The position numbers were made by a program, and so were the translations under genes. A DNA stretch of 64,000 bases from assembly GCA_001600495.1 (NCBI GenBank), contig BCKE01000012.1, forward strand, positions 18,525-82,524. Direction: 5' to 3'. Source of the DNA: Pilasporangium apinafurcum. Taxonomy: Eukaryota > Oomycota > Peronosporomycetes > Pythiales > Pythiaceae. Positions 3,739-10,603 of this stretch are shown here, in pieces. The first letter of the stretch is position 1. Every line of letters begins with the position of its first letter. Below the pieces are notes generated by a model. That model was not told the origin of the DNA. It was given only the letters and a program-made list of their open reading frames with translations, and did not search any database.

Positions 3739-4527
3739 CTACTTTCTCTTTCTCAACGTCTCTTCACTCTCTGGAGCCGCAACTGCTGGATTTGGTGCTG
3801 AAGCTGCCGCGACACCTGCTCCTGCTCCTGCAGCCTGTGCTTTCTGCATCGCCTGCATCTGTGCTTCTGCAGCCTTTCGCTGTGCAGCCATTTGCTGTTC
3901 TGCTATCTGATTCAAAAATTGGACCGCCTGGGGGAAAATCTTGTCTGGCCAACCCTCACCTACAAGTGACATAGCAAGAATAATGTAAAGTAACAACCCT
4001 CGCGTCCAGATACACAAGCAAAGATCGTGCATACCAGGCTTGAGGGCTTCTACTTCTCGACGGACATCGTTGATTTCTTGGTTGATCATTTCCTGCTCAT
4101 CCATGTCAATAATCATACATTAGTTAACCGTCACAAAATAACAAGTATAAGCGTTTTTACGCACCTCTGCCATCTTGTAACTAAGGAACGACCCATCCTT
4201 AAGGATGTCGTTTTTCTTCAAGCGCTGAATGCCGGTGCTTTCCGTCTGGATTTTACGGATCAACGGGATATCCGCGACTGCGCGACGAAATAGCATGTTG
4301 AACAGTGCCGCAGTGTCGTCAGGCTTTTCTTCTTTTAGCTTCTGGTACATTTCCACCTCTTGTGGCAACTCAAAGTCAAATCCGTTGATCATCGCTTCCA
4401 ACGACTGGTCGATTTCGCTCGTTTTCTTGGGCAGCCAAACGCGCGCCGCCATGAACAATAGCGCAAAAGAGATGACCGTTACAACGCTTGCCACGATCTG
4501 CAATTCCGTCAACGCCATGGCTATCAA
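3739..4527 (-). CDS. SEC66: SEC66/SEC71-like subunit of the ER Sec62/63 translocation complex
   Basis: Three exons (4527-4165, 4095-4035, 3959-3739) give about 214 residues; yeast Sec66 has 206. One N-terminal membrane segment (IVASVVTVISFALLFMAA) is followed by a cytosolic helical domain. Typical Sec66 features are YQKLKEEKPDD, LFRRAVADIPLIRKI, a stretch of EINDVRREVEALKPG, then EGWPDKIFPQAVQFLNQIAE. The protein assists post-translational import into the endoplasmic reticulum together with Sec62/Sec63. The tail is rich in Ala/Gln and ends in basic residues (LRKRK). Initiation could be at 4527 or at the ATG nine bases downstream; the acceptor of exon 2 could also lie three bases later. SEC66 is present in fungi and some protists and absent from animals. 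Confidence 0.78.
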
Positions 4528-4892
4528 GTGAGGGAAGATGCTGGTGTTGCCGTTGGCGTCTGCTGCTGCTGCTATGGAAACTCAGTGCGGAAGCGCCTAC
4601 GTGTCCGCGTTTGGTGACTGCCGCCAACGTGGCAACATAAAAAACCTTAAATGCGGAAAAGATAAAACCTACATAATATGGATTGAAGATTGGATAAAAA
4701 TATTATTTATTTCCACCAATCAATACGAAGCATAAATTTTCAACTTCCTCTTGATCCGGAAAGCGCCTAAGGAGATCCTCATAGATGCCAAAGATACCAA
4801 AGTACCGGACACTTACTCCCTCTTGGGCCTATAACACCAGTAAAGCTGGCAGGACTCCTCGAAGAAGGCGACTTCGATATTTTTTTGCTTTA
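4528..4892. other. Intergenic: 3' flank of the Fanzor gene
   Basis: No gene is supported here. The half next to the Fanzor stop codon (about 4740-4892) lies where TnpB and Fanzor loci usually encode the guide (omega) RNA, overlapping or just after the 3' end of the nuclease gene. I see GC-richer, potentially folding sequence there but cannot define an RNA or element end by eye. The other half is AT-rich and serves as the upstream region of SEC66. Confidence 0.3.
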
Positions 4893-6839
4893 TCAGGCGA
4901 AGTGTTCGCGNAAGATAGATCCGCCGATATTCTTGTGGAAGATGTTCTTTGCGGCACTTACATCACGATCGTGATCAAACGTACACTTCTTGCATTTGAA
5001 TGTCTCGCTTTCACTGAGTCTCTTGTTGATCTTCCCGCAGCGTGAGCACGAGATAGACGTGTATCTCTCACAGACTTCTTCCAAGTGTCCGCCTGTGCGC
5101 TCCATCTTCTGTGTTAGGAGCATTCTGAACTGATAATGTGACTGAGCCAACATCATCCGCGTCGTCGGACTTGAAATCTTGTGCTTGCGTCCACGTACTG
5201 TCAGCATCTCCTCTGGCTCCCATAAGTTTCTTGGTGTTGCATCTTCAACTTCCTCACGTACATATCTCGCAGACATTTTTTTTGTCTGAAACGTTGGTAA
5301 CAGTACCTCATGATAATTGTCGCTCAGCCACCGCGAGAGCTTCTGGTGCATATCATTGACCATCCGTGACACCTTTCTCAACAGAAACCGAATCTTGCGT
5401 CGCAGACGATAACGCTGACGTTTGTTCGTGCGTATTCTTTGTCGTGCTTGCTTCTTCGCAGTCCGTGTCTTACAAAATCTCTTGCAATTACAGACGGACT
5501 TCTTGCATGTAGTTGACTCAATCGCGTTCTCCATTAACGACAACTCTCTCTTATACGTGTTAATGAGTTGAAAGCGCCGCACGAGCTCTTTGTTCGGATC
5601 ACCCACACATAACACCCTGCCGTCGGGGTCGTATAGCGTGATGAACTTGCGTACTCCTGGATCAAGTGCGCATGATCGATTTGAGGTTGATATTGGGAAT
5701 GCCTTGTGTCGAGGGATGCATAAATGATATTCACCTTCACGAGAGCGCCGCACCCGAACTGAATAGTTGAGTTCGGGAAGCTTCTCGCGCACCTCGATTC
5801 CTTCGTCTTTCTTGAAACCAAAAAAAGTTGGGTGGAACCTAACACCGCTTTTCACAATCTTGATCGAACGACTACACAATTCGATCGAGTTCGAGCGTGC
5901 GAACTTGCTTTTGAAGCGAAGCTCTGGGAACGTGGTCTTCTCATTTTTTTCCTTTTTGGCAAAAAACAACGCCAACGATGAATCGACCGCTTTCGTAAAG
6001 TCTCCAAACGCAGACCCCNGTACTTCATCGTCAGCTTGACAATGNCGCCTCAATGCTTTCTTGTTTCTGAAATATCCCGCCATTTTACCTGATTGTGAGA
6101 TCGGGCGATGCTTTGTCGCGAGTTCTTTCTTTGTCATTTTTTGTGAATCACCTTTCTTCCTAGCGACTCTTGTAGCGACATCTTCCCTTGATCTGGCGAC
6201 GAGTTTGTTGTAAACAGNGCGGTTCGTAGCAAACATTTGCTCGAGTTTCTCGCGTTGCGATTGCGTCGGATACAATCGAATCTTGATATTACTGGTGATC
6301 GATGGGATTAAGGGAGGAGGCGGTTCATCCTCTTTTCGAAACCGAGCGCGCTTGACGTATGGTTTGAGTTCCTTGGCGGGGACCAGTATCCGCTTAGGGT
6401 TCCAACCAGCCACGTCCTCGTCCGCATAATTGAACACTTGGAACCACGACGTCATGAGAGGCTTGAGTAGATCTGGAACGTTTCGTAAATGCGCTGGTTG
6501 TTTGTTTTTGACTCGCTTTTCCCGATGTTTTCTTTGTTGGCGTTTCTTCTTACGAACTTTTTTGTTCCCACAGATCTTTGGTTTCCTCGACTTTCTTGTT
6601 TTGATGCGCGTATCCACCACTCGCAACGCACTACGCTCGGGGAACCACAATGTGCTTGCTATAGCAGGTCTGAACCATACAGATGGATGTCCATCCTTAT
6701 TGACCGTGGAGGCGTCTTCTTCGCGTTTGCGTTTGGTAGTGATCTTTTGATTTGAAGGCTTCTGGTTGCACTTGACTCTAGAACGCGAGCGTGGTGTGCC
6801 AATTTGAAGCCCTACGTCTTCAAAGTCATCGTGACAGTC
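4893..6839 (-). CDS. Fanzor (eukaryotic TnpB-like, putative RNA-guided DNA nuclease)
   Basis: An open frame runs from a putative splice acceptor at 6840 to the stop at 4893, about 648 residues; no in-frame ATG lies in its first 60 codons, so a short 5' exon is needed (donor possibly at 6888) and the start is unresolved. Order: basic N-terminal extension with KRKRE (likely nuclear localisation); IKIRLYPTQSQREKLEQMF and VYNKLVARS as in TnpB/Fanzor; RuvC-I CALDPGVRKF (Asp at 5661-5663); Cys-rich basic insertion; RuvC-II LLPTFQTKK, where the classical Glu is replaced by Pro; CERYTSISC with a candidate alternative Glu (5067-5069); zinc ribbon CSRC...CKKC; RuvC-III HDRDVSAAKNI. All catalytic positions expected for Fanzors are present. 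Four ambiguous bases fall in this ORF and none can encode a stop. Fanzors are reported to cut DNA using an omega RNA; activity here is inferred. Confidence 0.86.
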   Translation of the reverse strand, partial: DCHDDFEDVGLQIGTPRSRSRVKCNQKPSNQKITTKRKREEDASTVNKDGHPSVWFRPAIASTLWFPERSALRVVDTRIKTRKSRKPKICGNKKVRKKKRQQRKHREKRVKNKQPAHLRNVPDLLKPLMTSWFQVFNYADEDVAGWNPKRILVPAKELKPYVKRARFRKEDEPPPPLIPSITSNIKIRLYPTQSQREKLEQMFATNRXVYNKLVARSREDVATRVARKKGDSQKMTKKELATKHRPISQSGKMAGYFRNKKALRXHCQADDEVXGSAFGDFTKAVDSSLALFFAKKEKNEKTTFPELRFKSKFARSNSIELCSRSIKIVKSGVRFHPTFFGFKKDEGIEVREKLPELNYSVRVRRSREGEYHLCIPRHKAFPISTSNRSCALDPGVRKFITLYDPDGRVLCVGDPNKELVRRFQLINTYKRELSLMENAIESTTCKKSVCNCKRFCKTRTAKKQARQRIRTNKRQRYRLRRKIRFLLRKVSRMVNDMHQKLSRWLSDNYHEVLLPTFQTKKMSARYVREEVEDATPRNLWEPEEMLTVRGRKHKISSPTTRMMLAQSHYQFRMLLTQKMERTGGHLEEVCERYTSISCSRCGKINKRLSESETFKCKKCTFDHDRDVSAAKNIFHKNIGGSIXREHFA

Positions 6840-6959
6840 CTAAAAACGGGATAAACCCGAACAGGTTTGATAAAGTACGGTTTCTTACTGTGTGTAGGAT
6901 GCGAACTTGTGCTACGTGCGATAGTTCATTGCTTACGGTTCTGTTTGAATTGGACACTC

Positions 6960-7127
6960 GAACATCAGTCACTCATTCTTTTACTTTCTACATAGCTTTC
7001 TTAAATGTGATAATTGAGTTCCTAAGTTTCCTCCAAAAGAGCAAGTCTCTTTCAATTCCTCTCTTTCCTCTTCATATGCTTCCTCGTACGTGTATATAGT
7101 GTCAGTTAGTAAAGAGGGTGTATATCA
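6960..7127 (-). repeat. LTR-like remnant upstream of the Fanzor gene
   Basis: Read on the minus strand, this stretch matches by eye much of the LTR at the right end of the window. Shared blocks in the same order are ACCC..TTTACT, ACACT(A/G)T, GAGGAAGC, GAGGAAAG..GAAAGA, CTTTTGGAGGAAA and AGGAACT..ATTAT. It starts with TG at 7127 and ends without a clear terminus around 6960. It lies in the same orientation as the Fanzor gene, directly 5' of it, so it could supply a promoter or mark a nested insertion. The similarity was judged visually and needs an alignment. Confidence 0.42.
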
Positions 7128-7401
7128 TATCTCTCTCTAACGTTGGTAAATGATGGGAACTTTGGCAAAATGACTTTCTAGTTGCTGTAATTGCTGATAT
7201 TGCATATACTTGCAAGATTTAACCTCCCAATTTTACCCATTTCTTAGAAAAAATAATGAAAAAATTAGGTAACTATGAGTAATACTGTATTAATTAGGTA
7301 AAGTCTAAGCGGTAAAGTAGGCAACAGCTTGTGCGGCGGTAGGCGCTTTCCCACCTGGGTGACTGCTCGCACTGATTGCCAAAGACCTGTGAAGTAGTGA
7401 G

Positions 7402-8467: not shown

Positions 8468-9181
8468 CTATTCGGTAATCCATTGAACCTTCTCCTTGAT
8501 GGACTTGCGGAATCCCTTGTATTGACCAGGCTTCGGGTAGCCGACATAGAACAATCCAATACATTTGTCCTTCTCGCCCAAATTGAGGAATTGCTTCATT
8601 TCGTTAGAGAAAATTGGAGGGCCAGAGCTCCAGTAAGCACCAACGCCATGACCCGTGGCGGTGAGGTGCATGTTCTGCACAGCACAAGCCACTGCACAAA
8701 TTTCTTCAATCTCCGGTAGCTTTTCACTTTCTTGTCGCTTCATCACAATAGCGATAACATACGAAGATACCTTCTTGCTCTCGATGGCCTTATTATACTT
8801 TTTCTGTATGAACTTGTCCGCGGGCACCATCTTCTTATACAGTTCAGCCTGGAATTGTCCAAGACGAACACGCGCTTCCAAGGTATCAAATATAATAAAT
8901 CGCCACGGCTCCGTACGCGCGTGTGTGGGTGCCCAGTTAGCGCTTTCGAGCATCTTCTCGAGGATCTCCCGCGGTACCTTGCGGTTTGGATCGTAATCTT
9001 GAGGGAAGATAGAGCGGCGCGAGGCGATCAGTTGTTCAGCGGTCCACTTTTTCTCTCCATCATCCCCAGGGGAGGCAGCATCGGTGTGCTTGGCGGTACG
9101 GACAGGCTTCTTCACGTAGTATGTGATGGCAATAGCGACCGCAGTAACGATAGCTACCGACTGTGCCACTGGAGATACCAT
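8468..9181 (-). CDS. Membrane-anchored nitroreductase family protein
   Basis: A single exon encodes 237 residues from the ATG at 9181; the frame is open further upstream, but that part reads like promoter sequence. An N-terminal hydrophobic segment (VAQSVAIVTAVAIAITYYV) precedes the nitroreductase fold. That fold has SRRSIFPQDYDP near the start of the FMN site, ANWAPTHARTEPWRFIIF (the family pattern APS..N.QPW is varied to APTHARTEPW), and a C-terminal AVQNMHLTATGHGVGAYWSSG with a GLFYVGYP strand. Such enzymes use FMN and NAD(P)H to reduce nitro or quinone substrates. The leader suggests attachment to a membrane such as the ER or mitochondrial outer membrane; which membrane is unknown. Gene spacing is loose on both sides. 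Confidence 0.86.
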   Translation of the reverse strand: MVSPVAQSVAIVTAVAIAITYYVKKPVRTAKHTDAASPGDDGEKKWTAEQLIASRRSIFPQDYDPNRKVPREILEKMLESANWAPTHARTEPWRFIIFDTLEARVRLGQFQAELYKKMVPADKFIQKKYNKAIESKKVSSYVIAIVMKRQESEKLPEIEEICAVACAVQNMHLTATGHGVGAYWSSGPPIFSNEMKQFLNLGEKDKCIGLFYVGYPKPGQYKGFRKSIKEKVQWITE

Positions 9182-10603
9182 GTTGATTGAGATGGAGGGA
9201 GAAATGGGAAATGACCACGAATGAGAAGTTATGGCTACGGAATGATAGTCACTCTTACGGAATGTTGGTAAAGGGTCTAGAGTGGAACTCTTTGATTGGT
9301 TGAAAGGAGCAAACACATCGAAGATATCACTCCATCGGGAGATTGTCTAAACAGCAGAAGCGAATGCTTATGCTGCAAATGGATTATGTTTGTCACGTTA
9401 CGTGTTTTCATGTTTTGCTGCTTGTATACCGCAGTGTCCAGCTCGTCTCCCGTAGATCCATAATGCAGCCGTTTATGGGGAACTACCTGGAATGAGACGC
9501 AGCTCGTAAACATTGACCTGTATGTTTACTTTCAGTAAATAGAGCGTTTCTATTGGTCGGAAGCACGTTGCCCGCCTCATTTTCGCAGTTGTCAAAAACA
9601 CAGTGTTGACCCACATTGCATAAGAGCACTGAAGCTGTGCACCATCATCCTCCAGACACATCCCCCATGGATCATTTGTGCATGCAACATTCTAGTATCT
9701 TTCTGATCTGCTCAAACACTTTCGACGCAGCCTTTGAGGTGAGTGCTGGGAAAGTCAATCGAAAGCTGTAGACGTATCGGAGAGATACGCGCATAAGGTT
9801 ATCACAAATTCTCGGTCAGAATATGAAAACGATGGTCTCACAGTGCTTAGCTTTACGTCACAAAGCACTTGCATCCTGTTCGTGACGCTATCAGTTGTGG
9901 TCGTTGATATTTAAGATAAAGGGCAATTTAGTGCATCATTTTGGGGTCTGCTCTTCATCCATGAACTTAACAATGGGACATCGAATTCAATTGTACAATA
10001 TAGAAAACACAAAGCTATCGCTAATTTTTTTCATATTTTTCATGCATTTTTCTCGGTGGTTGCGGATAAGTAGAACAGATTTATTATCTGCAATCTGTTG
10101 TCACTGCATATATACATCCATGCCATGCTCACTGTAGCACAGAATTGTGCAAAGCATTTTATGGTAAATGTCGTTAAATACGTCAAGGACACTAATCTGA
10201 TCCAGGACCTCTGTTCAGAATGTTTCTCGAAAATAATGGCAGTTTCAGGATAATAATACTAGAAAACTGGAATATAATTGGGAGTTTCTGCCAAGCATTT
10301 GATAGAAGCTTCGACTCAGAAAAGCTCTTTTTGCGTTTGTCCAATCAAGTTCATGTGATACGATGACACAGTTTCTAATCAACCAAATTAACTTCTCTCA
10401 GTTCATGGTTATGGCCAACAGCGTGTTGTATGCAGATGGATCAAAATCCGTTACTTAATACTAATCTGCTATTGGCTAAAATATTTAATAAGGGGTAGGG
10501 TCTTTCCGCCGATGGAGAAAATTCGACCATCACTCTCGATTCGGATCATTCCGAGCTCACTGGAGGAGAGGGGCAACAGTCAGTTTAGCTGTCGACGGAC
10601 GAT
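9182..10603. other. Long intergenic region between divergent nitroreductase and sulfite oxidase genes
   Basis: No gene is supported. One exon-like stretch (9667-9738, starting ATG and ending at a GTGAGT donor) has no convincing continuation. Much of 9890-10500 is AT-rich without repeats I could recognise. The right end holds the likely sulfite oxidase promoter. Confidence 0.45.
10546..10552 (+). promoter_or_regulatory. Initiator-like TCATTCC upstream of sulfite oxidase
   Basis: TCATTCC matches the oomycete initiator consensus (TCAYTYY) and lies 52 bases before the sulfite oxidase ATG, a usual 5' UTR length in such genomes. Motif match only. Confidence 0.33.

Follow-up and report, generated by a model that had tools for sequence, protein, structure and literature searches.

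A start-less copy of a multicopy Fanzor-bearing element in Pilasporangium apinafurcum, with a putative omega RNA at its 3' end

With reference to Table 1 of Bao and Jurka 2013 (PMC3627910), Fanzors are recorded in five oomycete species, with counts of 6 in Pythium ultimum, 4+1 in Phytophthora sojae, 2+1 in P. capsici, 1+1 in P. ramorum and 2 in Albugo laibachii, and a Fanzor of Phytophthora cactorum has been modelled in PMC10711439. Since oomycete Fanzors were already in print in 2013, the suggestion of a first-pass annotation that an oomycete example would widen the set of natural RNA-guided nucleases does not hold, and no widening of the Fanzor range is claimed here. In this study, a Fanzor locus was investigated in the window, by which we mean the whole stretch of 64,000 nucleotides of Pilasporangium apinafurcum DNA that was analysed. 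We consider it highly probable that this locus is a copy of a multicopy eukaryotic DNA transposon in which the Fanzor is the sole recognised gene, the start has been lost, and the 3' end would give rise to a putative omega RNA.

The open frame, its domains and its active site

The Fanzor open frame lies on the minus strand and runs from 6839 to a TGA at 4893-4895 (648 codons plus the TGA), with a TAG at 6840-6842 as its upstream bound. Its four N bases fall in the codons NCT, CGN, CNG and TTN, none of which can be a stop, and the open frame of about 648 codons that had been annotated from 6839 to 4893 is thus confirmed. The translated frame comprises 647 residues, numbered from 6836. The TnpB N-terminal signature, the three acidic RuvC residues and the four-cysteine zinc ribbon of the earlier description were all found, as follows:

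6177..6290, minus strand: HTH_OrfB_IS605 domain (PF12323), the TnpB N-terminal signature or helix-turn-helix (Pfam, E 5.7e-10)
5661..5663, minus strand: RuvC-I aspartate in a DPG motif, read in the translated frame (motif after PMC10711439)
5067..5069, minus strand: RuvC-II glutamate at the alternative place (CERYTSISC), six residues before the first zinc-ribbon cysteine
4983..5048, minus strand: four-cysteine zinc ribbon CSRC..CKKC, within the PF07282 match
4962..4964, minus strand: RuvC-III aspartate (DRDVSAAKNI)

The profile search that had been called for at first pass was run, and it agrees with the Fanzor identity proposed there. Pfam detected the zinc-ribbon/TNB domain PF07282 (E 3.6e-19) in addition to the helix-turn-helix, with a weak match to PF01385 under its cut-off, and NCBIfam guided_TnpB spans the frame end to end with 109.6 bits against a cut-off of 100, which excludes a chance resemblance. 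Solved relatives in a sequence search of the PDB were the mimivirus TnpB-like L79 (9b0l first), TnpB, Fanzor and Cas12f, so that the domain content of a TnpB, comprising an N-terminal helix-turn-helix, RuvC and a zinc-ribbon TNB, is present by Pfam, NCBIfam and PDB search. Structure prediction, also proposed earlier, had a divided outcome. The top Foldseek matches of the core model were nucleases of the TnpB, Fanzor and Cas12 kinds, led by the mimivirus Fanzor2, at TM-scores of only about 0.3; the AlphaFold models were poor (pLDDT 43 and 57, the latter for the core), and because of this low confidence the Foldseek scores are used as support only.

According to PMC10711439, a DPG motif together with the alternative glutamate is the Fanzor arrangement, and the window frame shows precisely this, the glutamate preceding the zinc ribbon by six residues and a proline (LLPTF) occupying the usual RuvC-II place. 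The spacing between aspartate and glutamate is 198 residues, and the TnpB search pattern of PMC10711439 uses a shorter one of 120-160. Pfam, NCBIfam, the PDB sequence search and the active-site layout together support the reading of the frame as a Fanzor. For the class, we looked for a large protein, REC insertions and a TDG motif in WED as the marks of Fanzor1, and for a co-encoded IS607-type serine recombinase with neither terminal inverted repeats nor target site duplication as those of Fanzor2/IS607. The protein expected from ATG-bearing sister copies is about 660 aa long; no clear TDG motif was seen by eye in the window protein, whose predicted models are too poor for domain detail, and its best solved match is a Fanzor2, that of mimivirus.

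A second Fanzor-like lineage was observed in the same genome, represented by L005 (G000:C135:15207-18401, minus strand ORF) and L001 (G000:C7:591416-594610). Its RuvC-II glutamate (IIFLEKF) sits where TnpB canonically has it, falling at the corresponding position of a TnpB-like chain in an alignment, and the alternative place has no glutamate (VDAHHTTKTCS); DPG is present in L005, and the L001 fragment starts downstream of that motif. In the account of PMC10711439, Fanzors whose glutamate is at the canonical place seem to be bacterial TnpBs annotated in error. One of the canonical-glutamate copies is located on a contig of 875 kb, and the lineage may be a true eukaryotic case. The zinc-ribbon pattern was matched in 5 of 9 loci; L001, L005, L008 and L065 gave no match and were inspected separately.

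No viral relatives came up in scans with the window protein, A2 or L003, and the A3 scan yielded two among 101 pattern matches. The first, L074 (IMGVR_UViG_3300013105_000001, IMG/VR, a viral contig of 175 kb), encodes a Fanzor of 483 aa that has DPG as well as the alternative glutamate, and the ORF after it by eye resembles a TFIIB-type factor; the second, L075, encodes a TnpB by eye. Two ORFs neighbouring the Fanzor in the window were scanned with Pfam, and of these 8471-9316 is a nitroreductase and 4120-4527 had no match.

The element, its copies and the lost start

The frame is carried by a mobile element, which we delimited by comparison of its copies:

4764..7313, minus strand: Fanzor-bearing transposable element of about 2.55 kb; the similarity of the copies starts and stops at about these positions, and the flanks differ

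On the gene strand, the 5' end reads CCGC.. near 7312 and the 3' end ..AGGCG at 4764, and the copies looked at have near-identical ends in unrelated flanks. Searching P. apinafurcum's own genome (36.5 Mb, 136 contigs) with the element at the DNA level gave at least 80 matching pieces from the best 40 of 226 candidates. The 3' end had 61 first-look candidates and the 5' end 59, and all of the best 40 scored in each case matched; altogether, matches were obtained for no fewer than 43 distinct 3' ends, three of them added by a search with the 3' end of the diverged copy L072. The locus is therefore one of several dozen copies of a Fanzor-bearing mobile element. More broadly, PF07282 had 852 candidates, and among the best 150, all of which scored above the cut-off, there is a minimum of one further family (L002, L003, L004, L006 and L007).

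Inspection by eye showed no clear inverted repeats in the element, and no target duplication in 16 of the 19 copies with both ends readable; possible duplications were seen in the other three (L021, L033, and L013 together with its neighbour L035). The Fanzor is the only gene recognised within the element, where neither a transposase nor a recombinase was recognised. Helitron_like_N (PF14214) had no match in the genome, a weak null result since the control genomes were equally silent. One copy, L071, was considered as a longer autonomous element of 6 kb and rejected, as the extra length is a gap of N.

The first-pass annotation called the gene apparently intact. This had to be given up, as the window copy has neither the conserved start codon nor the full N-terminus:

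6839..6840, minus strand: junction left by a deletion of 145-148 bp particular to this copy, single in the genome
6453..6455, minus strand: first in-frame ATG of the window copy (MTSWFQVFNY..), which would give 520 aa

The deletion removed the ATG together with the first 13 codons and a portion of the leader, and the missing 145-148 bases are retained in the sister copies L013, L017, L021 and L028. The leader of the sister copies ends in ..CTCCGATTTGCCACGATGA.., a pattern that occurs at 29 genomic places when up to 2 mismatches are allowed, and the native start MKRRGRPP.. is kept at 16 places with up to 3. A start of the same kind (MPAKGKKKKK..) is found in the diverged subfamily (L065, L072), which indicates that the lost N-terminal part is ancestral.

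We surveyed the start in 31 copies (28 of L009-L038 plus L069-L071, with L027 and L032 left out for overlaps). Sixteen were readable from the 5' end to the early coding part, namely the window copy (L009) and 15 sisters; L028 and L029, read in a separate comparison of copies chosen for keeping the start region, bring the readable sisters to 17. An upstream in-frame ATG is present in 14 of these, six with the native start and eight with a loss of 49 bp and another ATG, and absent in L014, L020 and L022, which lost the whole start region by other deletions. Of the 18 copies readable at this point, 4 have thus lost the start; start loss is shared with other copies, and the particular deletion of the window copy is private. 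The eight copies with the common 49 bp deletion, which removes the native start, are L012, L015, L016, L019, L024, L029, L033 and L070; each has another in-frame ATG and a different N-terminus, and their leader indels differ with the frame kept.

Gaps and scattered N lie inside many element copies of this assembly, and the deletion, or the near-identity of the copies, could in part be an assembly artefact. That the missing start is itself such an artefact, the true locus resembling its ATG-bearing sisters, is in our judgement quite unlikely. The N runs or single N bases of many copies are typical of collapsed repeats, and the junction lies about 475 bp inside the element; against this, the junction is clean, free of N and unique, with a single genomic match even when 3 mismatches are tolerated, and has normal element sequence on both sides.

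A genome-wide copy count had likewise been proposed at first pass, with the thought that it might reveal the locus as a decayed relic. The result goes both ways: the start is gone and several dozen copies exist, yet the 520 codons from the ATG at 6455 retain the whole nuclease core, comprising the helix-turn-helix, the three catalytic residues and the zinc ribbon. This remainder speaks for the window copy being a working gene, in which the ATG at 6455, or a non-ATG or spliced start upstream, would yield a functional compact Fanzor. Related short frames exist elsewhere (504 aa in L003 and 483 aa in viral L074), the upstream ATG is missing from three sister copies as well, the junction bases TTTTTAG can be read as a 3' splice site, and some Fanzor2s have about 500 residues according to PMC10711439, so a 520-aa form may work. 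We nevertheless regard a working gene as unlikely, given the further-upstream ATG of most readable sisters, the type of N-terminus common to L065 and L072, and the lack of visible purifying selection among the copies, to which we now turn.

Frame-shifting indels were recorded within the coding part covered in 11 of 30 tabulated copies, and stops in C24 (one) and in C18 and C65 (several each); none of the copies examined, many of them gapped, is demonstrably fully intact. Minority states at codon positions 1, 2 and 3 numbered 81, 67 and 84 of about 10,590 cells each, so that this tabulation has no clear excess at position 3 and no sign of purifying selection, and the even spread fits copies that decay after insertion. 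Variation per 1000 cells among the close copies was 40 in the 5' noncoding part, 12.6 in the 3' noncoding part and 6.3 to 7.9 in the coding part; within the close family, the 3' noncoding end is thus not better conserved than the coding part. The coding figures may be lowered by collapsed assembly repeats, and as evidence on selection the whole tabulation is weak. The table omitted L027 and L032, columns with fewer than 8 letters and opposite-strand HSPs within a locus, and deletions between HSPs were not scored as frameshifts. In the 5' leader (window 6840-7313 and the same region of L010-L024), variation among copies is about five times that of the coding part, and numerous short indels affect repeated motifs, among them GCAAGTATATGCAATATCA and GAGAGATAT.

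Our preferred reading is that of an element copy that has lost its start: the window copy probably makes no full-length protein, and at most it would make the 520-aa form from 6455 or supply omega RNA to the Fanzor of other copies.

The 3' noncoding end and the proposed mechanism

Two further features concern the 3' boundary of the element:

4764..4880, minus strand: candidate omega RNA scaffold, the 3' noncoding end up to the element boundary, conserved in diverged copies
4744..4763, minus strand: flanking DNA, the would-be guide if an omega RNA crosses the boundary, by analogy with TnpB/Fanzor loci

Two diverged elements were available for comparison, L072 and L065, L073 being a partial representation of the latter. 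The last 115-117 or so noncoding bases of the window element are 84.7% identical to L072, 82.4% to L065 (119 columns) and 81.6% to L073, above the 60-65% of the coding stretches; L065 shows a protein identity of 44%. A global comparison with L072 gave the same order, with 100 of 115 columns identical in the 3' end, where two coding stretches had 335 of 519 and 367 of 553; a shuffled control for this comparison was set aside as unsound on account of its free end gaps. The first 170 or so bases of the 5' end reach 68.7% over 179 columns with L065, and in L072 there is only a weak match of 38 bases. A DNA search with the 3' end of L072 had 60 candidates, of which the best 40 scored were L072 itself, C135 and 38 of the window family. 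This conservation between subfamilies is as expected of an omega RNA and supports that assignment for the candidate region.

Both diverged elements were observed to be interrupted. The Fanzor of L072 (G000:C102:8600-12000) is broken just before the DPG motif by an insert with a tRNA-like stretch by eye and a short flanking repeat, TCGAGTGT, as of a SINE, and an insert of about 430 bp interrupts the zinc-ribbon region of L065/L073 (G000:C135:12584-13400), which adjoins the canonical-glutamate gene L005 on the same contig of 20 kb.

Transposase ends are usually shorter than about 115 bases. A conserved end that simply binds a transposase, with no RNA, is a possible though doubtful explanation of the 3' region: the conservation extends exactly to the element boundary and is without covariation, yet the stretch, at about 115 bases, exceeds the usual length of such an end, and conservation at the element's 5' end is lower than at the 3' end (in L065, 68.7% vs 82.4%). 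Changes on both sides of a pair occurred in 0 of 34 pairs of the consensus fold, a test limited by the alignment, in which all but 2 of the 8 sequences are close copies. Single sequences fold slightly better than their shuffles (z of -1.0, -2.1 and -1.2), and a covariance model of the 3' end matched the window only, among the window and eight loci of other Fanzor copies. With no compensatory changes and weak folding, it is the conservation that argues for an RNA role. The flanking 20-mer at 4744-4763 has one exact match in the genome and four at 3 mismatches, against two for the reversed control.

The mechanism that we propose for the element is drawn from TnpB and Fanzor systems, the analogy for a transcript at the 3' side being SpuFz1 (PMC10432273) and IS607 TnpB (PMC10711439). 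Transcription of the element would continue across its 3' boundary; the conserved end (4764-4880) would fold as the omega RNA scaffold, and the guide would come from the first 15-20 or so bases of host DNA in the flank. The Fanzor-RNA complex may then cut insertion sites that lack the element, favouring its retention or spread, and movement would require a transposase separate from the recognised gene. As neither a transposase nor clear inverted repeats were seen and target duplications were mostly absent, and yet the element exists in several dozen near-identical copies, spread driven by the Fanzor was also considered, in which guided cutting of empty sites and repair copying would be the main route of upkeep or spread and start-less copies would donate omega RNA; we hold this to be very improbable.

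Our data describe a Fanzor family that is young and present in high copy number in a single eukaryotic genome, with a 3' noncoding end that surpasses the coding part in conservation between subfamilies, so that an omega-RNA boundary can be predicted by comparison alone. The natural loci with and without start codons offer a test set for whether a Fanzor helps in cis or in trans.

Comparison with described Fanzor elements

The Fanzor1 elements CRe-1, CRe-2 and CRe-3 of Chlamydomonas, borne by Helitron2, are comparable in their insertions: as described in PMC3627910, these are as a rule without target duplication, with occasional duplications at copies with altered 5' ends, as in the window family. 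They differ in their Helitron2 carrier, in so far as Helitron_like_N was unmatched here, a weak point with silent controls.

The mimivirus Fanzor2 (PDB 9b0l) is the best solved match both by sequence and, on a low-confidence model, by fold. By sequence alignment it has the DPG motif of the window frame and the glutamate before the zinc ribbon, in a chain of 520 aa, where ATG-bearing sister copies would be expected to encode roughly 660 residues. According to PMC3627910, the IS607-type elements of mimivirus encode a serine recombinase, and none was seen within the window element.

With Spu-1/SpuFz1 of Spizellomyces punctatus, as presented in PMC10432273, the element shares its design, a single-gene element in tens of copies, many of them partial, and approaches it in length (about 2.1 kb for Spu-1 vs 2.55 kb). 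The inverted repeats of Spu-1 are conserved, and none is clear by eye in the window element. The omega RNA of SpuFz1 is known, at the 3' side of the gene, and its counterpart in the window is a candidate only. SpuFz1 is absent among the sequence matches listed, and in Foldseek the SpuFz entries appear from rank 35 downwards.

The window element is also like the oomycete Fanzor elements of PMC3627910, here likened by their description and not by their sequences, in carrying a TnpB-like gene within a repetitive element. The motif given there, D-X(125,275)-[TS][TS]xx-C4-RD, fits the window frame by eye, with about 200 residues from DPG to TSIS.
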